Virus record (IMG/VR): IMGVR_UViG_3300049255_000177
Location: 1 to 20,845 of that record
Source of the DNA: a virus
Direction: 5' to 3' (one strand)
DNA: 20,845 bases
Shown: positions 2,962-20,845 of the stretch, piece after piece
How positions within the stretch are numbered: the first letter of the stretch is position 1
Layout: each line of letters starts with the position of its first letter
Made by a program: the position numbers and the translations under genes
Notes under the pieces: model-generated
The model's database searches: none
The model's input: only the letters and a program-made list of their open reading frames with translations
What the model was told of the DNA's origin: nothing

Positions 2962-4686
2962 CTAGGCCGCCACGGGCTGGGCGAACGGGGCTGCGGGCGC
3001 GAAGGGCGCGGCCGGTCCGCCGGGGCCTTGGGGCGGCATGGCGCCGGCCACCGAGGCGATGCCGGCCCCCGCGTCGCGGCCGGCGGCGGCCACCTGGGCC
3101 AGCTTGTCGGCGTTCTGCTGCTGCGCCTGCTGATGGGCCAGGGCCTCGCGTGCGGCGGCCACCTTCTGGCGGCTGTTCATGGTGGCCGTGGGGGTGGCCA
3201 GGGCCTCCTGGATCACGCGCAGGCATTCCTCCAGGTCCACGGCCTGGGCGGCGGCCGGATCGTCCTTGGCCACCAGGGCGCGGGCGTTGATCAGCTGCAG
3301 CACAGACTGGATATTGCCGCGCAGCTGGGCGATCTGCAGCGGGCCGGCGTATTCCCAATCGACCGCGGCGCCGGCGATCGAGGCGGGCGCGGGGGCCAGC
3401 AGGTTTTCGGCGGCCATGATCTCCAGCGTCCGGTCGCCCATGGAACAGGTGGGCGCCTCCAGGTTGGCGACGATCGAGCTCATGCCGCGCAGGCGCATAT
3501 CGCGCCGTTCGGTGACCTCCTCGGCGGTCATGTCCCCGCTCTCGCGCAGGCGCAGCCAGTCGACAAAATAGCCCAGCTCGATGTCGTCGATCAGCGACTT
3601 CTTCAGGGCCACGGCCTCGCTGATGTCGCCTGTGAAATCCAGCTTCAGGATCGCCTGATCCGCCCGCTGCAGGCCCAGGCCCGCGGCGTTATAGGCGTTC
3701 AGCGCCCCGGCCCGGCGGTCCAGGGTCTTGCCGAACATGCGCGCCGGCACGGCCAGGGCGGGTTCGGCCTTCTGGCTCGCGCCGTTTTCGATGGCCTGTT
3801 GCAGATGGTTCAGCACCATCACATCAGGCAGCACCTGGCAGCCCGGCCCCTCGGCATAGGCCTCGCCCGGCATCGGGTCGTAGCGGTACACCGCATAGGG
3901 GAAGCTGTCGTAGCCCGAGGTTTCCAGGATCGCGCCCTTTTCCTCGGCGATGGCCACGAAGGCGAAGGGCTTGTTCTCCACCACCGCGCCCGGTCGGCCC
4001 CCCTGGCGCGGGCGGCAGGCCAGGACGATGGAGGTAAAGGCGTTTTCGTCCGGCCCCTTGTCGGCCTGGTTGGGCCATAGTTGCGGGGCGGTCTTGGGCC
4101 AGCGCGCGAACACCCGATAGAGCGGGAGCAGCATCTTGAAGTAGAGGGTGTCGATCACCCCCTCTTCGTTCTCGCTCCACCAGCAGGCCTGGACGGGCCG
4201 GGTGTTGAAATAGGGTCCGAACCCGCGCCGACGGCCAGTCCAGATCACCCCGCAGCCAAAGGCGCAGAATTCCTTCAGCATCGAGCCCATGCGCAGGGCC
4301 AGTTGGGCGCGCGGGCGCAGCATATGGTCGAACACCGACCATTCCATGTCGCCCAGATAGTCCAGGCCCGCGTCGTCGATGTCGGTGCGCCGGCCAGCCG
4401 CCACCAGGCCGCGCTTGACGTTGGGCAGCAGGAAGGGCCGCGTCGGATCGATCCAATAGGCCAGCACCAGGGCCGCCATGCGGCTGTTGGCGTTGGTGGC
4501 CACCGAACTGGTCACCCGGTGCGGGCGCAGCTGGCCCGGGCGGCGCGTCACGCTGAAATCGCGCCGGGGCAGGATGTAATCGGACACCAGCTGCCATTTG
4601 CGATCGTAGTCGACGCGAGCCGTGCGCAGCCCCTGGAACTGGCGCAAGTAATCGTCCACCTCGCGCCGCTGGACGATGGCCGCCAT
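2962..4686 (-). CDS. Portal / head-to-tail connector protein (574 aa)
   Basis: This is a podovirus-type portal (head-to-tail connecting protein family, BPP-1 Bbp21-like). Portals form the dodecameric ring at one capsid vertex through which DNA is packaged and ejected. The N-terminal segment has the usual look of this family: a short helix, RKWQLVSDYILPRR, then a polar NSRMAALVLAYWIDPTRPFL segment. The middle holds GCGVIWTGRRRGFGPYFNTRP, the clip/stem-type region. The C-terminal 100 residues are Ala/Gln/Pro-rich, suitable for a tunnel-lining barrel. The length fits the family. Start and stop overlap the neighbours by 1 bp and 0 bp respectively. Confidence 0.88.
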   Translation of the reverse strand: MAAIVQRREVDDYLRQFQGLRTARVDYDRKWQLVSDYILPRRDFSVTRRPGQLRPHRVTSSVATNANSRMAALVLAYWIDPTRPFLLPNVKRGLVAAGRRTDIDDAGLDYLGDMEWSVFDHMLRPRAQLALRMGSMLKEFCAFGCGVIWTGRRRGFGPYFNTRPVQACWWSENEEGVIDTLYFKMLLPLYRVFARWPKTAPQLWPNQADKGPDENAFTSIVLACRPRQGGRPGAVVENKPFAFVAIAEEKGAILETSGYDSFPYAVYRYDPMPGEAYAEGPGCQVLPDVMVLNHLQQAIENGASQKAEPALAVPARMFGKTLDRRAGALNAYNAAGLGLQRADQAILKLDFTGDISEAVALKKSLIDDIELGYFVDWLRLRESGDMTAEEVTERRDMRLRGMSSIVANLEAPTCSMGDRTLEIMAAENLLAPAPASIAGAAVDWEYAGPLQIAQLRGNIQSVLQLINARALVAKDDPAAAQAVDLEECLRVIQEALATPTATMNSRQKVAAAREALAHQQAQQQNADKLAQVAAAGRDAGAGIASVAGAMPPQGPGGPAAPFAPAAPFAQPVAA

Positions 4687-6977: not shown

Positions 6978-7534
6978 TGGCTGATCCTCACGGCCAGGGC
7001 TCCCGAGGTGAACGATCCCAGCTGGGCGCCGCAGTCCACGCGGTAGGGCACGCCGTACTGCGCCTCCACCACGTCCTCAGACAGCGCCGACCCGACGTAG
7101 CTCCAGTTGTAGAGGATGGTGGTGATCCCGCTGGCGGTGACAGTCAGCGGGACCCAGGTCGCGCCGTCCAGCTGGCGCTCCAGATAGCAGGCGGCCGAGG
7201 CGGTTCCCGACAGCTGAACGTGGAATGCCCGGCCGCCCTGGGGGGTGAAGGACCCGGAGGCGGAGGCGCTGGAGATCGTCGCGGTGACCGCGCTGACGCC
7301 GCTGGCCGGCAGGCTGCTGGGCGGCGGCGCCCCGCAAGTCACGCCGTTATAGACTTGGCCGACCAGGCCGCCGTTATTGCCATTACAGGCCTGGCTGAAC
7401 TGGGCCACGGGGGCCAGCGGCTTGATCGCGCCGCCGGGCGTCAGGACTTGACCCGTCATTGTCGGTGTCTGGGCGTGGGCGGCCGCCGCCAGCGCCAGCG
7501 CGCCCCCCATCAGAGCGAGGCGAAGAGATTTCAT
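6974..7534 (-). CDS. Phage beta-sandwich tail-associated protein with signal peptide (186 aa)
   Basis: The C-terminal domain (about 90-186) carries the pattern FTPQGGRAFHVQLSG...CYLERQLDG.TWVPLT...GVPYRVDC...ISQ. This matches a small beta-sandwich module common in virion or tail-associated proteins of podoviruses. The N-terminus (MKSLRLALMGGALALAAAAHAQ) is a textbook Sec signal peptide with AHA-type cleavage near residue 21. TAGGAG overlapping the stop of the terminase gene provides the ribosome site, and the gene ends in an ATGA overlap with the spike gene. It is likely a partner or chaperone of the spike. Export across the inner membrane is predicted from sequence and would be unusual for a virion protein. 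Confidence 0.65.
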   Translation of the reverse strand: MKSLRLALMGGALALAAAAHAQTPTMTGQVLTPGGAIKPLAPVAQFSQACNGNNGGLVGQVYNGVTCGAPPPSSLPASGVSAVTATISSASASGSFTPQGGRAFHVQLSGTASAACYLERQLDGATWVPLTVTASGITTILYNWSYVGSALSEDVVEAQYGVPYRVDCGAQLGSFTSGALAVRISQ

Positions 7535-7546
7535 CGGCGAGCGCTC

Positions 7547-9088
7547 CTAGGGATCGTAGATCGGGCGAGGAGCATCATGGCCGCCCTCCCCGTCCTGTCG
7601 GATGAACCGGCCCTCCACGGGACCGATACCCTCCACCGTCAGCGCGGCGTATTCGTCGGCCTCCACCACATGGCTGAACCGGTTCTTTTCCGGGCTCAGC
7701 CCGACCACCTGGCCGCGCCGTTTGTAGTGGAAGCCGCCGGCGTAGCCCTGGATCAGGCCGATGCAATCCGGATCGATGATCTTGGCCGGCTCGCCGGGCC
7801 CCACGCTCTTGCGAAACAGCCGGTCAATGGCCGCCCGCCGATCCTTGGGCACATTGGTGGGGGCCAGCTGGGCTTCGATCCCCGTATAGTGCTGCAGGGC
7901 CTGGGCCGTGGTGAATTCGCTGGCCGCGTTGGCCCCGCCGGCGGCGGGATCCAGGCACAGCATGGCGCCGGGCGCATGCTGGAAGCGGGTTTCGATGATG
8001 CGCCGGATCTCGCCGCCCAGCTCCTCCGTGGTCATCTGGCCGTCGGGCAGGTAGATCTCCGCCAGGGTGCGCCATTGGCCCGAATAGGCGCGTTGGCTGA
8101 AGGTCGCGGCCGGGATCATGGCGTTGGACCCGGCGTCGATGCCCACATAGACCGGCGAGAAGCGATCGACCTCCAGGGAGCGGATCGCCACATGGCGGTC
8201 CTGGTCGAAATTGGGATGCACGGGTTGGCCGTGGCGGCCATAGCCCGGCCGATTGTTGATCATCCGGCCGATGTCATAGGCGTCCAGCTGGGTCGCCATG
8301 TGGGCGTAGTAGTCCGGCCTGATGCGGCGCAGATTGGCCATGTTCTCGGCATTGGCGGAGAAGCCCCCGGGCTGGCGAAACAGCCGGTCGGTGACCGGCG
8401 CCCGGCCGCCGTCGGGCATGCGCTTCAGATGGAACCGGGTGTGGTAGGCGGTGCCGATCATGGGGGCGTTGGCGTCGCCGAAGATCCCCGAATAGCCCGG
8501 TTCGCCGCCGTCCGGACGATCCTCGGGCTCGGGGTAGCGGCCGACGCGGTTGGATCCCAGCGACAGGATTTGCGGCAGGTCCGCGTTGGTGTCAGCTTCT
8601 GGCAGGTGGATCGCGGTGAACTCGAACCCCCGGAAGAAGTCCTCGATATCCAGGTCGTTGACGGCGCGGAACAGGGTCTCGACATGCAGGCGCGAGGGCT
8701 GGCCCCGGATATTGACCACCATGTCGAAGGTGTGGTCCGCCGGGTCGCCGCGCGACCCGCGAAACTCGCCCATGGTCTGGGGATAGACCTTGAAGTAGCT
8801 GGGCATGATCGTGTCCCAGGCCCGCCGATAGGTTGGGCAGATGCACACGATCCGGGCTCGACGCACGCTGTCGCGGGGACTAGGCTGTTGCCAGGTTGCG
8901 ACGCGGACGTACCGGCGGCTTGAGGCCGTGGTCTTCCCACCCCCCGTAGGCCCCTCGATCATCGCGATGGGGGCCCGGCTGACCTCGTAGGCCTCGGCGA
9001 CGGGGCCGGCGAATGTCCAGCGCCGCAAATCCACCTGATCGCGCAGCTGCAAGCCTTTTTCCCCGACCCCGACCCGTTTTACGATCAC
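7547..9088 (-). CDS. Terminase large subunit (513 aa)
   Basis: This is the packaging motor ATPase and nuclease. Walker A is GPTGGGKT (46-53). A Walker-B-like strand FTAIHLPEAD (157-166) supplies the catalytic acid. The C-terminal RNase-H-like nuclease begins at VYVGIDAG (313-320), with Asp318 as the first metal ligand, and a second acidic strand MLCLDPAAGG follows. Length and order fit large terminases of BPP-1-like podoviruses. The start is GTG at 9088 and has a weak ribosome site. A slightly downstream TTG preceded by AAGG is possible. The gene follows the probable small subunit across a 209-bp gap with a strong hairpin. Confidence 0.9.
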   Translation of the reverse strand: MIVKRVGVGEKGLQLRDQVDLRRWTFAGPVAEAYEVSRAPIAMIEGPTGGGKTTASSRRYVRVATWQQPSPRDSVRRARIVCICPTYRRAWDTIMPSYFKVYPQTMGEFRGSRGDPADHTFDMVVNIRGQPSRLHVETLFRAVNDLDIEDFFRGFEFTAIHLPEADTNADLPQILSLGSNRVGRYPEPEDRPDGGEPGYSGIFGDANAPMIGTAYHTRFHLKRMPDGGRAPVTDRLFRQPGGFSANAENMANLRRIRPDYYAHMATQLDAYDIGRMINNRPGYGRHGQPVHPNFDQDRHVAIRSLEVDRFSPVYVGIDAGSNAMIPAATFSQRAYSGQWRTLAEIYLPDGQMTTEELGGEIRRIIETRFQHAPGAMLCLDPAAGGANAASEFTTAQALQHYTGIEAQLAPTNVPKDRRAAIDRLFRKSVGPGEPAKIIDPDCIGLIQGYAGGFHYKRRGQVVGLSPEKNRFSHVVEADEYAALTVEGIGPVEGRFIRQDGEGGHDAPRPIYDP

Positions 9089-9297: not shown

Positions 9298-9846
9298 TTA
9301 GGGCTGGCCGTCCGACTGGCCCTGTCCGACTGGCCGACCACCCGTTGGCAAATCGTCAACGATTTCAATGGGCGCGTCGTCGTCGAAGGACAGCAGGCCG
9401 GCGGCGCCGCTGGCCTGGCCCTCGGGGATCATGAACGCCATGGCCGGCGGCTTGGCCTTGCTCTCGGCGGCCTGCGGCTGGCGCTGGTGGATGTAGGGCA
9501 TGAGCTCCACCCGCTCCCGGGCCAGCAGGACCCAGCCCTCGGCGCGCGAGATGCCGAGGGCCTTGGCCAGCAACGCCGCCTTGACCAGCATCGCCAGCGT
9601 CACGGCGTCCAGCCCCAGGTCGACGATCTGGAGCTCCGCCGCCAGCGCCTTGGCCTTTTTGAGGTCCGCGGGCTTGACCATGGCCAGCTCGGCCGCCTGC
9701 TGACCGGGCGTCATCCCGCCATAGGTCGCCTCGACCCACCGCGCCAGGTCCGCCGACCGCCGATTGCGCGCCCCATGCGGCCGCCCCCGACGCCGCATTG
9801 GGGCCGGCTGGGCGAGGTCGAGGGAGGGCTGGGCGGCATCGGTCAT
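9298..9846 (-). CDS. Probable terminase small subunit (182 aa)
   Basis: It is encoded immediately upstream of the large terminase, where the DNA-recognition subunit is expected. The N-terminus carries a basic AT-hook-like segment, RRRGRPHGARNRRSADLARW (about 18-37). A helical region follows (MTPGQQAAELAMVKP...LKKAKALAAELQ) with a central HTH-like core. The C-terminus is acidic and low-complexity. I see no strict family signature, so the name rests on position, size and the basic helical N-terminus. The ATG at 9846 has no good Shine-Dalgarno. Only 19 bp separate it from the first heptamer of the symmetric array, so the array probably lies in its promoter/leader. Confidence 0.58.
   Translation of the reverse strand: MTDAAQPSLDLAQPAPMRRRGRPHGARNRRSADLARWVEATYGGMTPGQQAAELAMVKPADLKKAKALAAELQIVDLGLDAVTLAMLVKAALLAKALGISRAEGWVLLARERVELMPYIHQRQPQAAESKAKPPAMAFMIPEGQASGAAGLLSFDDDAPIEIVDDLPTGGRPVGQGQSDGQP
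9782..9803 (+). repeat. 22-bp direct repeat, copy 1
   Basis: It is identical to 14615-14636 (starts CGCCCCCGACGCC, ends CATTGGGG). This copy lies in the terminase small gene and encodes part of the basic PMRRRGR segment. Similarity stops abruptly on both sides. Confidence 0.8.
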
Positions 9847-9865
9847 TGGTGGCGATTATTTTAGA

Positions 9866-10119
9866 GGGTTCTGCAGGGTTCTGCCCAGGGTTCTGTCATT
9901 TGTTCCGCCTTTTCCAGGCCTTAGACCTTAGAGAACCCATAGAACCCATAGAACCCTATTATCCTCATGTGTGCGTGAGCAATACGAGGCGCCAAGCCCG
10001 ATGCCGCGCGCGTACAGGAGGGGCGACAGGGTTCTATGGGTTCTATGGGTTCTGTGCGGCCTAAGCCGCTGATCTTGCTGGCCGAATGGCAGAACCCGGG
10101 CAGAACCCGGGCAGAACCC
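9866..10119. repeat. Symmetric array of twelve GGGTTCT/AGAACCC heptamers
   Basis: GGGTTCT starts at 9866, 9876 and 9888. AGAACCC starts at 9932, 9941 and 9950. GGGTTCT starts again at 10029, 10038 and 10047. AGAACCC starts at 10091, 10102 and 10113. The four triplets mirror each other exactly around 9992.5: outer triplets span 29 bp, inner triplets 25 bp, and both outer gaps are 37 bp. The inner triplets form a perfect 26-bp inverted repeat (9932-9957 and 10028-10053). No convincing gene covers the region. It has iteron or operator character and sits between the leftward late genes and rightward early genes. Candidate roles are replication origin, control region or packaging site. Confidence 0.92.
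9959..9967 (+). promoter_or_regulatory. DnaA-box-like 9-mer in the centre of the array
   Basis: TTATCCTCA differs from the consensus DnaA box TTATCCACA at one position. It lies in the central gap of the heptamer array. A single 8/9 match is weak by itself, but its position supports an origin hypothesis. Confidence 0.4.
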
Positions 10120-10233
10120 TCCGGCCGTCTGGCTTCGCCAACTTCATGCCCTCGAAGTGGAGGGTCGGGGTCGGGCCAAACGCCGCGAACCCTGTGTCTC
10201 ATGTCAATGGGTCGGGGCGCAAGCGCGGGGCGG
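10120..10233. other. Gap between array and early promoter
   Basis: This stretch of about 115 bp lies between the last heptamer and the early promoter. I see no gene or further heptamer in it. Confidence 0.3.
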
Positions 10234-10266
10234 TTGACAGCCTCTCAACTGTCGCTTAAAACGACA
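10234..10266 (+). promoter_or_regulatory. Early rightward promoter with overlapping palindrome
   Basis: TTGACA (10234-10239) is followed after 17 bp by TAAAAC (10257-10262), a good sigma-70-type pair. The imperfect palindrome TGTCGCTTAAAACGACA (10250-10266) covers the -10 element and looks like a repressor operator. The first downstream start codon is at 10316. Confidence 0.6.
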
Positions 10267-10315
10267 CTCGACGCGGTCGGCAAGGGCCGTCGCGGCATCG
10301 GAAAGGACCGAACAC

Positions 10316-10468
10316 ATGGCTCTCGATCGCTCGGAAATCGCCCGCGCCCTGGCCAAGGCCATCGCTTACAAGCAATGCGCCAAGCAGGAAGACGCGGAGG
10401 CCTGGGCCCGGCGACTGGTCGAGCTGCTGGAATGCGCCGAAATCCTGGCGCCGGCTGGGGAGCGCTGA
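10316..10468 (+). CDS. Small early protein (50 aa)
   Basis: This short gene starts at ATG 10316 behind a GGAAAGGA ribosome site and ends at TGA 10466-10468. The product begins MALDRSEIARALAKAIAYKQ and is a single amphipathic helical unit with two Cys residues (positions 21 and 40). It is the first gene after the early promoter, and the next gene starts 4 bp after its stop. Third positions are GC-rich like its neighbours, supporting real coding. I do not recognise the family. Size and position suggest an early host-takeover or regulatory peptide. Confidence 0.6.
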   Translation: MALDRSEIARALAKAIAYKQCAKQEDAEAWARRLVELLECAEILAPAGER

Positions 10469-10471
10469 GCC

Positions 10472-10813
10472 ATGGCCACCACACTCAACCGCGCCCATCT
10501 GCGCCGCATGATCGAACGCGGCGAACTCGTCGCCAGCTGCGACGGGATTTATACCGATGACTACGCCCAGGACGAGGCCGCCAACTATCGGCGCACGGAC
10601 TGGATGCCGGCCCGCGTCCGGGCCGCCGGCGAAGCCTGGAACGACGCGCCGGCGGGGTGTGTCACGTTGGACCCTCGCGATTTCTGCGGCTTACCTTCGG
10701 CCGCGCGCCGCCGTCGCGGCCTGACGTTCAGCCTAGCCCCCGGCCGACCGGTCGGGGGCCTTGCTGAGCGCCTGGCGATTTGGGCGAGGAGGAATGCACA
10801 TGAGCGCGCTTGA
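10472..10813 (+). CDS. Hypothetical early protein (113 aa)
   Basis: This is the second gene of the rightward early run. The N-terminal part (TTLNRAHLRRMIERGELVAS) has helix-turn character, followed by acidic YTDDYAQDEAANYRRTDWMPARVR. The last 40 residues are Arg/Pro-rich. Its end overlaps the next gene by 14 bp. I see no catalytic motif or membrane segment, and the family is not recognised. Confidence 0.55.
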   Translation: MATTLNRAHLRRMIERGELVASCDGIYTDDYAQDEAANYRRTDWMPARVRAAGEAWNDAPAGCVTLDPRDFCGLPSAARRRRGLTFSLAPGRPVGGLAERLAIWARRNAHERA

Positions 10814-11138
10814 CCTTCGCCCGCCGGGCCGCCACCACATGGCGACGTGTGAGGAACCGCGCATGGCCGCTGCCGATCGACCCAGCGACGCCCAGCTTAT
10901 CGCCCGTGCGGGCGTGTCGATGTTCGGCGATGAGTGGCCGGCGCCTTTGGCGCGGGCACTCGGCGTCAACCCGCGCACGATGCAGCGCCTGGCGGCCGCC
11001 GTGCGCGAGGGGCGCGGCTATCCGCTCAACCCTTCGCTGATCGAGGATCTTGCCGCGCTTCTGCGCCTCGAGGCGCGCGAGCACCTGGCGCAGGCGGAGG
11101 CCCTCGAACAGGCCTCCGCCGACGCTAAGGCGCGGTAG
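10800..11138 (+). CDS. HTH-containing small protein (112 aa)
   Basis: The start at 10800 is chosen because a perfect AGGAGG (10787-10792) lies 7 nt upstream. The ATG at 10794 would sit only 1 nt from it. Residues about 30-75 read as a helix-turn-helix: FGDEWPAPLARALGVNPRTMQRLAAAVREG, where LARALGVNPRTMQRL fits the two DNA-binding helices. A charged Ala/Glu helix follows. Small proteins of this design are common in alphaproteobacterial prophages as putative regulators. The DNA target is unknown. Confidence 0.65.
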   Translation: MSALDLRPPGRHHMATCEEPRMAAADRPSDAQLIARAGVSMFGDEWPAPLARALGVNPRTMQRLAAAVREGRGYPLNPSLIEDLAALLRLEAREHLAQAEALEQASADAKAR

Positions 11139-11216
11139 GGGTTCGGGGGAAGCGCTGGCGTGAGCAGGCGGCCGGATCGCCATCGCGCGGGGGCGCGGAT
11201 TTCGTGAGATTGGCGG

Positions 11217-11245
11217 TTGATCGCCGTACAGCGATCTTGTACAGT
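11217..11245 (+). promoter_or_regulatory. Promoter with operator-like palindrome for the 128-aa gene
   Basis: TTGATC (11217-11222) and TACAGT (11240-11245) are spaced by 17 bp. The palindrome GATCGC-N6-GCGATC (11219-11236) fills the spacer between them, a position where a bound repressor would block RNA polymerase. Confidence 0.6.
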
Positions 11246-11299
11246 CAGCCTATGGACGCGACGGGATCAGCCCGACGCCCGAGGTTCGGAGACCTGAAG

Positions 11300-11686
11300 A
11301 TGACCACCCTGATCCGCGAACAGACCAGCATCCCCGCCGTTGGCGACATCTGGGCCGACGACGGCGCGTTGGGAAAGGGATTTGTCCACGCCCCGCGGCT
11401 ATCGCGCGTCGCAACAATCGACACGTTTGGTGAAAGCGTCCACTACAAGTGGGATGGCGAAGAGACTTATGCGGTCGCCCTAATCTATGGTCGTGGCGAA
11501 CGGGCCTACGGAACGCTGTCCGGTCCACGGGCTTTTGATGGCCGGTACATAAACAATCGCGTAGCCGATCGATTGGCCGGACGGGTGTTTAATGGCGTCG
11601 ATGACTTGGCCGACGCACTCAAGGACCTAGGATTTGACGCTGTCGTCCAGACCCATTCGGGGGGCTCTTATACCCGCATTCGGTAA
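11300..11686 (+). CDS. Unknown protein of a self-contained cassette (128 aa)
   Basis: The start at 11300 has GGAG 8 nt upstream. Longer readings from 11204 or 11252 would begin in or at the promoter. The product starts MTTLIREQTSIPAVGDIWADD and reads as a compact mixed alpha/beta soluble protein. It has no signal peptide, membrane segment or catalytic motif that I recognise. Codon use is less GC-biased than its neighbours (ATA, TTT and AAT codons around GRYINNRV), which suggests later acquisition. It has its own promoter with a palindrome and a strong hairpin 28 bp after the stop, the architecture of a lysogenic-conversion moron. Function unknown. An anti-defence role is a hypothesis only. 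Confidence 0.7.
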   Translation: MTTLIREQTSIPAVGDIWADDGALGKGFVHAPRLSRVATIDTFGESVHYKWDGEETYAVALIYGRGERAYGTLSGPRAFDGRYINNRVADRLAGRVFNGVDDLADALKDLGFDAVVQTHSGGSYTRIR

Positions 11687-11713
11687 CCGATCACCTGGAA
11701 GCCCCTAGTGCAT

Positions 11714-11740
11714 CCCCTCCTCTCCAGCGGAGAGGAGGGG
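11714..11740 (+). terminator. 12-bp hairpin after the 128-aa gene
   Basis: CCCCTCCTCTCC (11714-11725) and its exact complement (11729-11740) enclose AGC. No T-run follows, so termination would be of the U-tract-free type or need Rho. The position right after the gene favours a terminator. Confidence 0.6.
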
Positions 11741-11819
11741 GGCTCAGAGGTCGGGCCGGGAGCAACTAAGTGCGCTTTCGGGGGACCAGCCTGTTTAGCA
11801 ACACGCAGACATTCGGACA

Positions 11820-12239
11820 ATGAGCCAGCCCTCAAATAGCTTCGGGACCCTCTACGGCCTGCTCCTCCAGGCCTGCGGCCTGTCGCACCGAGAAGCCGCC
11901 GCGCTGCACGGCGTGCGGCTGGACACGATCAACTCCTGGTCCTCAGGGCGGCGGGAGACGCCCGCCGGCGTCATCGCCGATCTGCGCGCACTGTATCGGT
12001 CGATCGCCGGGGCGGCGGCGAACCATGCCGAGACGCTGCGTGAGGCGCCAGATGATTGCGCGATCGAGCTGGGTTATCCGGCCCACGATCATGAGGCGCT
12101 GGCGCTGGGGTTTCCCAGCATCGGCGCATGGCGCGCCATGGCCGCGATCGTGGTCGCGCAGACAGACCGCCCGATGATCCTGGTCCCCCGCGGCTCAACC
12201 CCGGCCACGGCCGCAGCGGTCGATGCGCACGGCCGGTAA
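11820..12239 (+). CDS. HTH regulator, XRE/YdiL-like (139 aa)
   Basis: Residues about 12-50 form a helix-turn-helix: LLLQACGLSHREAAALHGVRLDTINSWSSGRRETP. The LSHREAAALHGV/TINSWSSGRR pair fits scan and recognition helices. The remainder is a small helical and Pro-rich tail ending PMILVPRGSTPATAAAVDAHGR. It lies 133 bp downstream of the unknown 128-aa gene on the same strand and converges with the leftward operon (73-bp gap). It could be the autoregulator of the preceding cassette. The ribosome site is weak. Regulator class is a fold-level inference. Confidence 0.68.
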   Translation: MSQPSNSFGTLYGLLLQACGLSHREAAALHGVRLDTINSWSSGRRETPAGVIADLRALYRSIAGAAANHAETLREAPDDCAIELGYPAHDHEALALGFPSIGAWRAMAAIVVAQTDRPMILVPRGSTPATAAAVDAHGR

Positions 12240-12311
12240 TGACGCTTAAGGACCGCGCGCTCACGATCCTGGCGCGCCCTCGTAGCCAATGCGCGTGTCG
12301 TAGACGGCCTC

Positions 12312-12605
12312 CTAGGTCGCGGCCGGGATTTCGACCTGGCTGGTGCCCAGGCCGGCGGCCGACAGCCCATGGCGCAGTGCGTCCGCCGCATCGTCGGCCG
12401 GCGGCGGCCAGGTCGCTTCTCCGCTTAGGATCGCCACCACCTCTTCCACCGATCCCTTCACCCCCAGCTGATCCAATCCGCCGGCCACCGCGCCGAACAC
12501 GATCATCGTGTGTTTCTGCTGGGAGACCTGCACCCGCGCCACCTGGTCCGGATTGACCGGGATCCGCGTGCCATTGATCAGTTCAAGCCACACGAATTTT
12601 GCCAT
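12312..12605 (-). CDS. Small phage protein, last gene of the replication operon (97 aa)
   Basis: Its ATG directly follows the helicase stop (TAGATG). The first 60 residues have the rhythm of small beta-barrel proteins: FVWLELINGTRIPVNPDQVARVQ, a TMIVFG strand, then VKGSVEEVVAIL. This resembles the layout of FlbD-type small proteins (hydrophobic strands, NG turn, VNPD, then SVEEVV). The likeness is structural only and may be convergent. The tail is Ala-rich. Function unknown. A replication accessory role is inferred from operon position. Confidence 0.6.
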   Translation of the reverse strand: MAKFVWLELINGTRIPVNPDQVARVQVSQQKHTMIVFGAVAGGLDQLGVKGSVEEVVAILSGEATWPPPADDAADALRHGLSAAGLGTSQVEIPAAT

Positions 12606-14516
12606 CTACGCCTCCAGCGCCTCAGCCAACTTGATGAACATGCCCTTGAACTTCTTGTCCAAGCCCTTGTCGCACCCGCCGTTGGTGAACAGATGTTTCG
12701 GCATCTGCCTCAACACCCCGGCCCAGGGTCCGGGCGTGGCCAGGCGGCCGGCCCAGGGCGAGCCGGCGAACAGGGCGTTCAGGCCTGGATGCACGGTCGG
12801 CACGAACAGCCGGGCCGTGGAAAAGTCCTTCACCACATCGTCCGCCGCGAAGCTGATCGACAGCCCCACCTGGGGCAAATACTTCTCCACGTCGTCGATA
12901 TGGCTGGGGGTTGTCTGCCAGGCCTCCAGCAACTCCCACACGCTCTTCTTGGAATTCGTGCGCCACACGTCCGGCTGTTGCTTCAACATCAGGTCGAAAC
13001 ACCGCCGCCAGGTCTTGGTGCGCGTGGCCGTCTCGTTCAGCTGATCGGCGCGCAGCCATGCGGCCCAGTGCTCCAGCTCGCCGGCGTCGGGCATGGCCTC
13101 CGACAGGGCCACATGGCAGCCGGCGGCCAGGGCGCCGAAGGTGTCGGCCGATCGGTCCTCATGTCCCGCGGCGATCAGCATCTCGCGCATGGCGTCGCGC
13201 AGCCGATCCCAGCGCGACCGGTCGCCCTCCATCTCGCACCACTTGAACATGCGGCGCAGCAGCTGGCGGCCCACCGCCTGGGCCAGCTTGGCCTCGCGCA
13301 GGCCCAGCTCCTTCAGCACGTCCACGCCCCGCTCGCCGGCCCGCGCCGGCGGCCGTTCGCGCATCATCAGCACGGCCATGCGGCTGGCGTCCTGGGCGTC
13401 CATGGCGGGCAGGGCGATCGAGCTGAACAGGAAGCTCGACATCACCGAAAATTCCTGGCCCACGCCATCCTTGCCGCCCCTCTGCATCTTGTCGCCGGAA
13501 TAGGCGATGCGGGCCAGCTCCAGGATCTTGTCCGTGGTGCGCGTATCGGCCTTGGCCTCCAGCTCGTCGACCATCACGGCCACGCTGTCCTGCCGCACCT
13601 TCTGATAGATCCCCGCCTGCGTGGTGTTGCTGGTCGACAGCAGCGCCCCGTTCATGATCCAGCGCAGCAGCTTCTGCAGGGTCGATTTGCCCGCCCCCTC
13701 GGTGCCCACCACATAGACCACCGGCCGCTGCTCCAGGCCGCCGCCGACCATGGCCGTCATCAGCCAGCCCAGCGCCAGGCGCGCGTCCATCTCGCCCCGG
13801 TCCCAGTTCCAGCTCTGCAGGGCCTGCAGCAACAGATCGCCCGGCGAGCCATCGCCGGCCTTCTCGTATCGCTCGCTGGGGCGGCCGATCCGGGGCCGGC
13901 CGGGATAGATATATTCGCCATGCTCGCCCGGCGGCTTCCATTTGCCGCCCACCATCACCGCGTCGCCGGCGTGATAGATCAGGCCGCCGTTGTCGTCGCG
14001 CCACGCGCCCCGCCCGCGCACCCGGTCCTCCAGCTCGAAGGCGCCCTTATAGGCGCAGGCCGCGAACAGATCCTGGCGCGCCTCCTCGGCCGCCCAGTTC
14101 TTCACCATCGGGCTCTCGCCCTTGTTGCGCGGCATGGTCCACTGCGGCCAGGCCCAGCACAGATACAGCGGCCGGCCCTTGAACAGGGCGTCGATGTGGC
14201 CCTTGCCGGCGTTCGGCGCCAGGGTGTGCACCTCGCCCAAGGTATTGAGGAAGTAGAAGGTTTCGCCGAGGGTCCCCAGCGGGGTGACGGGGCAGTTTTG
14301 CGGCAGCCCCGTGCGCCGGTCCACAAACCCCGCGCCGCGCCATTGGCCGGGCTCGATCGTCTCCTCCGGCTCGCCCCGCTTGGCCACGTTCATGGGACAC
14401 CCCTTGGGCGCATCGGCCAGGGCCTGCTGGCGCAGGCTCAGCACCGCCTCGGCGTCGTCCTCGAAGGTGGGGAACGCCGCGGCGATCTCGTCGAAGGGAC
14501 TAAGGGACTGGGTCAA
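12606..14516 (-). CDS. Phage replicative helicase, AAA+/SF3-like ATPase (636 aa)
   Basis: This is a probable DNA helicase of the replication module. From the proposed start, Walker A is GTEGAGKST (about 271-279) and Walker B is VAVMVDELEA (about 312-321). They are followed by a sensor-like SSFLFSSIALPAM segment and an arginine-rich stretch. The N-terminal 250 residues may be a primase-coupling region. No zinc finger or AEP primase motif was found. I place the start at TTG 14516 because it overlaps the methyltransferase stop as TTGA, as other genes in this operon do. An open frame to 14648 exists but reads through the methyltransferase. The primase lies two genes upstream, so primase and helicase are separate polypeptides. 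Confidence 0.75.
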   Translation of the reverse strand: MTQSLSPFDEIAAAFPTFEDDAEAVLSLRQQALADAPKGCPMNVAKRGEPEETIEPGQWRGAGFVDRRTGLPQNCPVTPLGTLGETFYFLNTLGEVHTLAPNAGKGHIDALFKGRPLYLCWAWPQWTMPRNKGESPMVKNWAAEEARQDLFAACAYKGAFELEDRVRGRGAWRDDNGGLIYHAGDAVMVGGKWKPPGEHGEYIYPGRPRIGRPSERYEKAGDGSPGDLLLQALQSWNWDRGEMDARLALGWLMTAMVGGGLEQRPVVYVVGTEGAGKSTLQKLLRWIMNGALLSTSNTTQAGIYQKVRQDSVAVMVDELEAKADTRTTDKILELARIAYSGDKMQRGGKDGVGQEFSVMSSFLFSSIALPAMDAQDASRMAVLMMRERPPARAGERGVDVLKELGLREAKLAQAVGRQLLRRMFKWCEMEGDRSRWDRLRDAMREMLIAAGHEDRSADTFGALAAGCHVALSEAMPDAGELEHWAAWLRADQLNETATRTKTWRRCFDLMLKQQPDVWRTNSKKSVWELLEAWQTTPSHIDDVEKYLPQVGLSISFAADDVVKDFSTARLFVPTVHPGLNALFAGSPWAGRLATPGPWAGVLRQMPKHLFTNGGCDKGLDKKFKGMFIKLAEALEA

Positions 14517-15103
14517 GCAACGCTCGCGAACAGGCCCCCGGCGGCCGCCTGGGCCGCTGGATTGATCCAAAGGACCTCGGTGCGAGGCCGTGCGCCATCG
14601 GCCAGTGCTTGCATCGCCCCCGACGCCGCATTGGGGGCACGTCGCCATCCGGCAAGCGCGCCGTCGTATAGCTCCGAGGCATAACCACTGATCACGATCA
14701 TGGAGCTCGAGCGAATGGCCCAGTCGAGCATCTCGCCATGCTGGCCGTCATCCATCTCGTGCTTGTAGGCGTGCTTCAGCGCTCCCTCGACGCGCTTTTT
14801 GCTGCGGCTGTTATGTACATAGGGAGGGTCCAGATAGATCAGCGCGCCGTCTCCATCGAACCGCTGCGCCACCGACAGGCCCGGGCGGTTCTCGATCACG
14901 ACGCCCTGGAGCAGGTCGCAAATGGCCAGCAGCGCGGCCGGCATCCCTGTCCAGTCCAGCGCCGGATGTTTGCCGCTCCGGTCGCTGTTGGCCCGAAAGG
15001 GCTCGACATAGGTGCGATGCTGCGGGAAGTGCGCCACGATCCATAGCGCGAGCCGCCACTTTCCGCCCATATAGCGGAGCGCTGGACGGTTTAGGGAGCT
15101 CAT
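14513..15103 (-). CDS. DNA adenine methyltransferase, D12 class, internally deleted (196 aa)
   Basis: D12 (Dam-type) enzymes transfer a methyl group from S-adenosylmethionine to adenine N6. The N-terminus is typical (YMGGKWRLALWI..FPQHRTYVEPF). So are the catalytic DPPY (about 92-95), the SGYASELYD strand and RTEVLWINP near the C-terminus. In normal members, EPF continues into GGG..., the SAM-binding loop, followed by a ND(L) region and then a GFRANS.RSG segment. Here EPF joins RANSDRSG directly, so about 80-100 residues including motif I are missing, while the frame stays intact. Usual length is near 270-290. Activity is doubtful. It has an ATGA overlap with the primase gene. Confidence 0.8.
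   Translation of the reverse strand: MSSLNRPALRYMGGKWRLALWIVAHFPQHRTYVEPFRANSDRSGKHPALDWTGMPAALLAICDLLQGVVIENRPGLSVAQRFDGDGALIYLDPPYVHNSRSKKRVEGALKHAYKHEMDDGQHGEMLDWAIRSSSMIVISGYASELYDGALAGWRRAPNAASGAMQALADGARPRTEVLWINPAAQAAAGGLFASVA
14615..14636 (+). repeat. 22-bp direct repeat, copy 2
   Basis: It is identical to 9782-9803 but here lies in the methyltransferase gene in a different reading frame (encoding PNAASGA). It falls in a segment that looks inserted relative to the usual family spacing before ADGARPRTEVLW. It is also a weak hairpin (GCCCCC...GGGGGC, 14616-14638). Confidence 0.8.
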
Positions 15104-16215
15104 CCGGCCCTCGCCCAATCGTTGAAATCGCTGCCAACCGCGCTGGCCACCACGAACACCGGCCGGCCCTTGGCCAGCTTGCGCCAATGCGCCTCCACCC
15201 GCGCGAACGCGGCCCGGGCGCCGGCGCCGTAGTCGTTCTCGGCCATCAGCACCACGGCGCTGGCGCATTCGGGCCAGTCCAGCAGGCCCATGAACGACAG
15301 GCTGCCCGCCGCCCACACGCGATAGTGCGGCAGGACGCAGGCCGCGGTCAGGCAGGTCTCGATGCCCTCGCCGATCGCGAGCGGATCGCGCCGGCCGACC
15401 TTGGCCGCCGCGCTCGGCGACAGGCCGCTGGGCCCGCTGGCCAGCCTGATCGCCGCGCCGCGCACCGGCCCGATCATCAGCTTGGGCTTGGCCATATCGG
15501 CCTTGCCGCTGCCATCCGGCTTCAGATAGGTGCGGTGCAGCCCCACCACGGCCGACCCGCGCGTCATGGCGCTCACCATCACATGGCGCCAGGTCTTCAC
15601 CTCGCCCGTGGTCTGGTTGACGTACTCCACATGCTCGGCCCAGCGCAGCGCGCCGGGCATGGCCCTCAGCCGCTCCAGGGGCAGGCCGCGCGCGTGGCGC
15701 AGGTAGTGCTCCGCCGGCGTGCCGGCGATCGGCGGCAAGGTCAGCCACAGGGCGAACAGATGGGCGGAATTGGCCTCGTCGTCCTCCCGCGCCTTGGCCT
15801 CGGCCGCCAGGTGATCCAGCCGGCGGCGCTCCTGTTCGGCGGCGATGGCCCCGCGCCGGCGCGGCGCGTCCGCGCGGCCCTGGCGGTCCAGGTTCAGGAA
15901 ATCCACCGCCCACCAATAGGTGTCGATCTTGCTCCTCAGCCCCTCGACCCCGGCGATCAGGTCGAACACGTCGCCCTGGGCGCCCGTGGCATAGTCCTTC
16001 CACGCGCCCTTGCGGTCGGCGTCCTTCCAGATCACGAAGCTGCCCGCCTTGCGGTCCGCCCGCATGGGGTTGATCGGAAAGATGCGCCGCCCGTCGCCCG
16101 GGCCGGGCAGATCGTGCTTCAGGTTCAGCCGATCCAGCAGCGCCGTCAGGTCTCCCTGCAACCGCGTGCGGATCTCGCCCCAGTCGTAGGGCAGGGGCGC
16201 GCGTTCGGCGGTCAT
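15100..16215 (-). CDS. Toprim primase (371 aa)
   Basis: This is a probable DNA primase that makes primers for phage replication. Residues 1-110 resemble the N-terminal region of Toprim_3/DUF7146-type phage primases (RIFPIN...GSFVIWKD...WKDYATGAQGDVFDLIAG). The Toprim core shows GEGIET (282-287) with the catalytic Glu, then VVLMAENDYGAG (321-332), where the DxD motif reads E-N-D, and FND near the end. The ATG at 16215 is chosen: it overlaps the previous stop as ATGA and has GGAG 8 nt upstream. A GTG at 16221 would sit too close to that site. The helicase is encoded two genes downstream. Confidence 0.82.
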   Translation of the reverse strand: MTAERAPLPYDWGEIRTRLQGDLTALLDRLNLKHDLPGPGDGRRIFPINPMRADRKAGSFVIWKDADRKGAWKDYATGAQGDVFDLIAGVEGLRSKIDTYWWAVDFLNLDRQGRADAPRRRGAIAAEQERRRLDHLAAEAKAREDDEANSAHLFALWLTLPPIAGTPAEHYLRHARGLPLERLRAMPGALRWAEHVEYVNQTTGEVKTWRHVMVSAMTRGSAVVGLHRTYLKPDGSGKADMAKPKLMIGPVRGAAIRLASGPSGLSPSAAAKVGRRDPLAIGEGIETCLTAACVLPHYRVWAAGSLSFMGLLDWPECASAVVLMAENDYGAGARAAFARVEAHWRKLAKGRPVFVVASAVGSDFNDWARAG

Positions 16216-16427
16216 AGCCACAGCTCCAGCGCGGCGCGGGCGATTTCATCGCTCCATTCCGAAAGCGCGTTGGCGACGTCCAGGGGCGGACAGAGCGCGA
16301 TCTGCTGGCGCACGCTGGCGCGCAGCACGGCCCAGGCCGCCGCCTTCGCGCCCCGGTCGGGGGCCAGCTGCTGCACCGTATCGTGCACCAGCCGATCGGC
16401 CAGGGTGTCGATGGGCGGCGCTCTCAC
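16212..16427 (-). CDS. Hypothetical protein, GTG start (71 aa)
   Basis: This is a small helical protein (TLADRLVHDTVQQL..., RASVRQQIAL, LSEWSDEIARAALELWL) encoded between the pentamer-repeat ORF and the primase. The GTG at 16427 overlaps the preceding stop as GTGA, and its own stop overlaps the primase start as ATGA, so it is a translationally coupled link in the operon. No motif is recognised. Confidence 0.6.
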   Translation of the reverse strand: MRAPPIDTLADRLVHDTVQQLAPDRGAKAAAWAVLRASVRQQIALCPPLDVANALSEWSDEIARAALELWL

Positions 16428-16591
16428 GTCATGGCCTCCCGCTCGTCGTCCTCGCGGTCCTCATCGGCCGCGTCGAGCGCGTCCAGCCAGCCGATGGCCG
16501 TCTGCGCCACATATTCCAGCCAGGCGCGAAGAGCGGCTCGGCTCGGCTCGGCTCGGCTCGGCTCGGCTCGGAGGGCGTTTTCATGCGGCAT
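16424..16591 (-). CDS. Small ORF with seven CGAGC repeats (55 aa; possible start 16645)
   Basis: The coding-like part is the C-terminal LRAWLEYVAQTAIGWLDALDAADEDREDDER. The N-terminus is largely made by seven CGAGC pentamers (RAEPSRAEPSRA). In-frame starts are ATG 16591, which overlaps the DnaA-like gene by 11 bp, or ATG 16645, which overlaps by 65 bp and follows GGAT. The ATG that forms an ATGA overlap with the upstream stop (16584) is out of frame at seven repeats. The product has no recognised domain beyond a likely helical core. Frame dependence on repeat number suggests phase variation. Confidence 0.5.
   Translation of the reverse strand: MPHENALRAEPSRAEPSRAALRAWLEYVAQTAIGWLDALDAADEDREDDEREAMT
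16536..16570 (-). repeat. Seven tandem CGAGC pentamers
   Basis: Seven exact units (GCTCG on the plus strand) lie within the 5' part of a small ORF. The unit length is not a multiple of three, so a gain or loss of one unit shifts the reading frame. Confidence 0.9.
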
Positions 16592-17006
16592 TCGAAAACC
16601 GATCACGTTTGCGTGATCCTGGCTCGGCGTCGGATGAAGCGCCATTTTTCATCCGACGCGCCTGCGCCGCCAGCGACGCGGTCACCGTCACCCGCAGGCC
16701 CTCGGCCCGTTCCTCCAGCTCCACGTCGTCGGCCAGGGCCGCGCGCATCCGGGTGCAGTGGCTCTGCACCGTGTCCTTGTGCAGCCCCACATGGCGGCCG
16801 ATGGCGGCATAGCGCGCGCCGGTCAGCACCACCGCCAGGTGCAGCGCCATCTTGCGCGCCTCCCACACCGCCTTGGGCGGGCGGGGTCCGCGCCCCCGGC
16901 TGGGCGCCGTCAGGGCCTCGGGCGCCAGGTCATAGGCCGCCGAGGTCGCCAGCACCGCCGCCCGCCACGCCGCCGCGATCGGCCAGCGATATCGCCCGAT
17001 CGCCAT
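16581..17006 (-). CDS. DnaA domain-IV-like DNA-binding protein (141 aa)
   Basis: Residues about 50-90 (ARKMALHLAVVLTGARYAAIGRHVGLHKDTVQSHCTRMR) match the layout of the C-terminal DNA-binding domain of DnaA, which recognises DnaA boxes through a helix-turn-helix and basic loop. There is no ATPase domain, and 141 residues is far shorter than full DnaA. Standalone proteins of this kind occur in alphaproteobacterial prophages. GGAGG lies 8 nt before the ATG. It sits in the replication operon before the primase, so an initiator-loading or origin-recognition role is reasonable. A transcription factor is the alternative. Confidence 0.65.
   Translation of the reverse strand: MAIGRYRWPIAAAWRAAVLATSAAYDLAPEALTAPSRGRGPRPPKAVWEARKMALHLAVVLTGARYAAIGRHVGLHKDTVQSHCTRMRAALADDVELEERAEGLRVTVTASLAAQARRMKNGASSDAEPGSRKRDRFSNAA

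Positions 17007-20079: not shown

Positions 20080-20845
<766 letters not shown>

Follow-up and report, generated by a model that had tools for sequence, protein, structure and literature searches.

The window, by which we mean the whole stretch of DNA analysed here, is a viral record from IMG/VR; it is 20,845 bp long and has a GC content of 69%. It carries genes for capsid, portal, terminase, primase, helicase and a CI-like repressor. Between the helicase and terminase genes lies an array of short repeats, and the order primase-helicase-array-terS-terL is also seen in relatives. The coordinates of these features are given in Table 1. The mechanical open reading frame of the helicase extends to 14648, and the ATG at 14393 was taken as the start; the product matches the profile phrog_21086 with E = 2e-64, as well as a DNA primase family. 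Relatives of the terS-like protein match PHROG families of unknown function. About 2.5 kb of small genes (10120-12605) separate the helicase gene from the array in the window, compared with <700 bp in close relatives. A D12-class adenine methyltransferase encoded at 14513-15100 on the minus strand apparently lacks ~70-80 residues between its YVEPF and DPPY parts. A perfect CGGCT pentanucleotide repeat of 7.6 copies is found at 16534-16571 amid the early genes, and the contig ends in a 208-bp low-complexity tract of the GGCGGC type (20638-20845).

Table 1. Features of the window around the repeat array
Feature	Position	Strand	Details
Terminase large subunit (terL)	7547..9088	-	phrog_2, E = 3.2e-6; tblastn to annotated terminases
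terS-like gene	9298..9846	-	Named by position before terL only; start 19 bp from array
Outer iteron triplet, terS side	9866..9894	+	GGGTTCT at 9866, 9876, 9888; spacing 10, 12
Outer-inner gap, A/T-richer, candidate melting region	9895..9931
Inner iteron triplet	9932..9956	-	AGAACCC at 9932, 9941, 9950; spacing 9
Central spacer with imperfect palindrome	9957..10028		CTCATGTGTGCGTGAG in window, CTCGC..GCGAG in relatives; includes TTATCCTCA
Inner iteron triplet	10029..10053	+	GGGTTCT at 10029, 10038, 10047; spacing 9
Inner-outer gap	10054..10090
Outer iteron triplet	10091..10119	-	AGAACCC at 10091, 10102, 10113; spacing 11
Initiator-type helicase	12606..14393	-	595 aa from ATG at 14393; Walker A GTEGAGKS
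Helicase C-terminal domain, candidate iteron-binding	12606..13019	-	Model pLDDT 95.4; top VIA-align chain SaPIbov1 Rep 452-555
Primase-like protein, DUF7146 and Toprim domains	15100..16221	-	Pfam E = 1.9e-23 and 7.2e-9
Small DnaA-domain-IV-like HTH protein	16581..17006	-	Pfam and PDB matches

All 12 GGGTTCT heptamers of the window, counted on both strands, fall within 9866-10119, where 1.73 were expected in the entire window and none of 100 shuffles reached 12. They form four mirror-symmetric triplets in the orientation + - + - about an axis at ~9993, and the distance from outer to inner triplet, start to start, is 44 bp on both sides. The two 94-nt halves of the array are 73% complementary. 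A long DNA hairpin is predicted at the array (z = -13); since it results from the mirrored repeats, it was not counted as separate evidence. An Rfam search gave no match. The outer triplet nearest the terS-like gene has an aligned counterpart in close relatives. An imperfect palindrome of the CTCGCacatatGCGAG type beside an inner triplet is also kept in relatives, at the array centres of loci L057-L067.

Relatives were gathered by helicase homology and scanned for clusters of one hexamer in both orientations, each compared with 100 shuffles. Most of the scanned loci have a cluster downstream of the helicase gene that none or few of the shuffles equal, and where the terminase is further off, or genes intervene, the cluster is found near terS. 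Among loci in which a cluster was detected, 64 non-redundant ones carry ≥7 copies of the hexamer, and 53 of these carry ≥9 (9-14 copies). The hexamer itself takes 33 different forms among the 64 loci, with similar geometry. The 1.48 Mb outside the arrays yielded 17 clusters, nearly all of G/C-only hexamers. The detector found no cluster in L047, L052 and L109, two of which end shortly after the helicase gene, and weak clusters in L111, L131 and L134 were set aside. Fifteen loci have four clear alternating groups; in these the gaps between outer and inner groups are mostly 40-45 bp on both sides, with a spacing of 7-9 within the inner and 8-13 within the outer groups. The first gap, corresponding to 9895-9931 of the window, averages 29 percentage points more A+T than its locus, and the second (10054-10090) 16 points more, with all 15 loci above their own average in both cases. 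In the remaining loci the groups are fewer or oriented otherwise, so that the exact four-triplet form, although common, is not universal. A direct search of viral contigs for the triplet word of the window, GGGTTCTNNGGGTTCTNNGGGTTCT, returned 37 records, none of them mirrored and most of them runs in one orientation, and a scan of genome contigs gave one distant locus only. Among isolate phages with the helicase, ZRG1 has a cluster 4.6 kb downstream of the helicase gene and MQ-4 a loose array ~1.7 kb downstream; no clear array was seen near the helicase of PY223, Mwe-JY13, KLER1-1 or Touem01.

The AlphaFold model of the helicase has a pLDDT of 89.9. Its best whole-model structural match is SCCmec Cch (5dgk; Z = 16.1 over 432 residues); further matches are to SaPI5 Rep (7ola; E = 8e-9 by Foldseek) and to helicases of the poxvirus D5 type and the MCM family. 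When the C-terminal domain was compared, the top rank went to residues 452-555 of SaPIbov1 Rep, although with a weak Z (4.5), and most of the chains ranked next were DNA-binding domains; Foldseek with this domain alone gave no match under E = 0.001. Alignment of the window helicase with the EcCICFT073 primase/Rep by hhalign covered 60 columns around the P-loop only, at a probability of 26.

An iteron origin read by the helicase of a mobile element is a known kind, found in SaPI, PICI and SCCmec elements. The C-terminal domain of SaPI Rep recognises iterons directly downstream of the rep gene, and Cch2, through its own C-terminal domain, binds iterons that lie downstream of the cch2 operon and that it requires in vitro (PMC7581432). 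In PICIs the origin is located on the 3′ side of rep, where A/T-rich DNA is flanked by two sets of iterons, and the cloned rep-ori of EcCICFT073 replicates (PMC6092414). Applied to this origin, our detector found 11 copies of GGTAGA in alternating groups. The phage arrays resemble those of SaPIbov1, SaPI5 and EcCICFT073 in having iterons, some in each orientation, close to the 3′ end of an initiator-helicase gene and iteron sets that flank A/T-rich DNA, and the predicted helicase fold is shared with SaPI5 Rep. They differ in occurring in complete phages, in having four triplets arranged as two mirrored arms and in lying mostly beside terS; the primase of the window is, moreover, a separate Toprim protein. 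A PICI is a helper-dependent satellite, whereas the phage encodes a terminase, portal and capsid of its own, and consequently we did not file the window as a PICI. The SCCmec proteins give the best whole-model match, and Cch2 likewise has a downstream iteron site; that site, however, consists of three 5-nt iterons compared with 12 in four groups in the window, and the primases differ. A further likeness is to phage P4, whose alpha protein is a primase-helicase initiator that binds short iterons on both strands, although there the iterons belong to two separate sites, ori and crr. Phage lambda encodes an initiator, O, with four direct iterons inside the initiator gene, and loads the host DnaB; in the window the iterons are inverted groups outside the gene and the helicase is encoded by the phage. 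The preliminary description had regarded a phage initiator acting on alternating triplet iterons as new. The principle is known from the elements above, but the layout as a widespread phage origin appears to be new: the four-group mirrored form beside terS in complete phages was not found in the literature searched, which lay mostly outside subscription journals.

We believe, with a probability of about 0.78, that the replication origin of this temperate phage is formed by the array (9866-10119) and that its initiator is the SaPI-Rep/Cch-like helicase encoded by the phage itself. Speaking against this view are the missing GC-skew signal, the weak match of the helicase C-terminal domain, the isolate phages that have the helicase and no clear array near it, and the 2.4 kb between array and helicase gene in the window. 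The array is tied to the helicase rather than to TerS. In 34 discordant cases the nearest neighbour depended on whether the helicase C-terminus or TerS was compared; the helicase C-terminus was the better predictor of the iteron in 26 of them (Wilcoxon p = 0.0004), the loci sharing ancestry and hence not being independent. For arrays >1.1 kb from the helicase gene it was better in 9 of 10, the window being the lone exception. The C- and N-termini of the helicase were not separated as predictors (10/23), and in the full set helicase and TerL were about equal (17/33). Rank correlations between motif and protein similarity over the whole set were weak for all proteins (0.05-0.20, TerS highest), and when the helicase was scanned in sliding windows, the highest AUC (0.71) came from the N-terminal part. 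Consequently, the proposal that the C-terminal domain reads the iterons rests more on the fold and the precedent of SaPI and Cch2 than on covariation. The helicase is likely the reader of the array.

Since the array lies beside terS in most genomes, we also considered a packaging site (cos or pac), at which TerS would bind the heptamers and terminase would cut in or near the array. Lambda cosB adjoins the TerS gene and offers a precedent. It contains three TerS binding sites (PMC6092414). In the window 19 bp separate the array from the terS-like gene; in relatives the array mostly ends ~20-95 bp before that gene, and it stays there even with the helicase up to 6.6 kb away. The distance to terL is also less variable (interquartile range 894-1226 bp) than that to the helicase gene (140-1220 bp; the array lies a median of 282 bp 3′ of that gene over the 64 loci and 2.4 kb in the window), and this low variation is not explained by an origin alone. 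Against packaging, the iteron in the discordant cases above goes with the helicase more often than with TerS, and pairs with similar TerS and dissimilar helicase C-termini differ in their iterons. The mosaic locus L114, for instance, combines TerS and TerL like those of L040 with a different helicase C-terminus and a different iteron, and in both L114 and the L040 group the terS-like gene is 0.5-1.0 kb from the array. In two phages the array is found by the helicase and away from the terminase: that of phi1422, whose helicase matches the window helicase over its full length, starts 11 bp beyond the helicase gene, the terminase being at a distance of 7.2 kb, and that of Acjo_20 lies ~260 bp before (5′ of) the helicase gene and ~4 kb from terS. 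No array was seen in the stretch scanned around the terminase of five phages (BcepC6B, Rollin, TM3_14A, Hodr and Y3) that have a related TerL and were not recovered by the helicase search. Given these results, we consider a packaging site unlikely.

The origin had been proposed in the preliminary description from a DnaA box and a DnaA-like protein, and a DnaA-type origin would have host DnaA or the protein encoded at 16581-17006 bind that box or the heptamers. The near match exists: TTATCCTCA at 9959-9967 on the plus strand differs from TTATCCACA at position 7 alone and lies inside the heptamer array, although not precisely in the middle but beside one of the inner triplets. Boxes with one mismatch occur three times in the window against 1.00 ± 0.94 expected, a number reached by 6 of 100 shuffles, and no box with up to one mismatch is present in the arrays of the 11 close relatives in our alignment (helicase 61-67% identical), which have GCGAGGATTAT or similar at this site, half of a small imperfect palindrome. 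With the count at chance level and no conservation, we judged TTATCCTCA to be a chance match and rejected it as a functional DnaA box; an oriC-like origin would have several conserved boxes, and the array has a single near match. The protein, encoded in the early operon, shows some likeness to the DnaA C-terminal family but scores below the curated threshold of PF08299 (Bac_DnaA_C; 18.9 bits, cut-off 31.5, E = 0.0016). In the PDB its best match is 3pvp, a chain of DnaA domain IV (E = 0.25); it has GLHKDTV in place of the GRDHTTV of 3pvp, the stretch with which DnaA contacts its box. As Bac_DnaA_C is matched (E ≤ 0.01) in only 8 of 50 related records, the protein cannot be the general reader of the arrays and was rejected as such. 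GC skew, suggested as a check, gives no origin signal: over 22 genomes there is no consistent change at the array (left above right in 10 of 22), and the skew of the window flips near 11.5 kb. Thus both original reasons fail and a DnaA-type origin is hardly credible, while the iteron-built origin itself is supported by the comparison of loci, much of it from outside the window. Another reading is an operator of the late operon, with a regulator on the heptamers controlling a terS promoter and no role in replication. The A/T-rich patch noted earlier at the left end is real (gattattttaga, ~9854-9865); it abuts the start of the terS-like gene, outside the array, and includes a promoter -10-like TAAAAT. 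A sigma-70-like site (9887-9858, minus strand) overlaps the outer triplet, and the array and the terS-like gene adjoin in most loci. An operator would not, however, be expected to be a large symmetric array of 12 sites that is kept by the helicase where terS is far, and the validated PICI origin has the same kind of pattern. We therefore regard an operator as very improbable.

For the origin read by the phage helicase, we infer that replication starts at the array through helicase binding, melting and a double hexamer. By analogy with SaPI Rep and Cch2, the C-terminal domain of the helicase would bind the iterons and a hexameric helicase ring would load at the array; the A/T-rich gap between outer and inner triplets may then melt, and the Toprim primase would prime synthesis. 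With its twelve sites divided between two arms of six, the array would suit a pair of hexamers facing opposite directions, and its mirrored form makes such loading directly testable. More tentatively, and in our estimate with the odds against it, the arrays may constitute a widespread class of phage origin in which 12 iterons in two mirrored arms of six each receive one self-loading helicase hexamer for a bidirectional start, with at least 33 iteron words in a similar geometry, and in which initiation is coupled to packaging or late transcription by the fixed position before terS. If dozens of complete phages share this kind of origin, satellites, SCC elements and phages would be connected by a single replication module. 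The arrays also amount to a natural experiment on the recognition code of the initiator helicase, since their layout is similar and their iteron word highly variable.

Two further loci deserve mention. In L095 the array (7436-7665) is directly before terL and 4.9 kb from the helicase gene, with a TerS-like match upstream of the array. In L192 (Vibrio phage VA-RY-3), a phage picked up only via its terminase, nine copies of AGGATA in both orientations lie between genes at 3873-4120, possibly another origin of this general kind.
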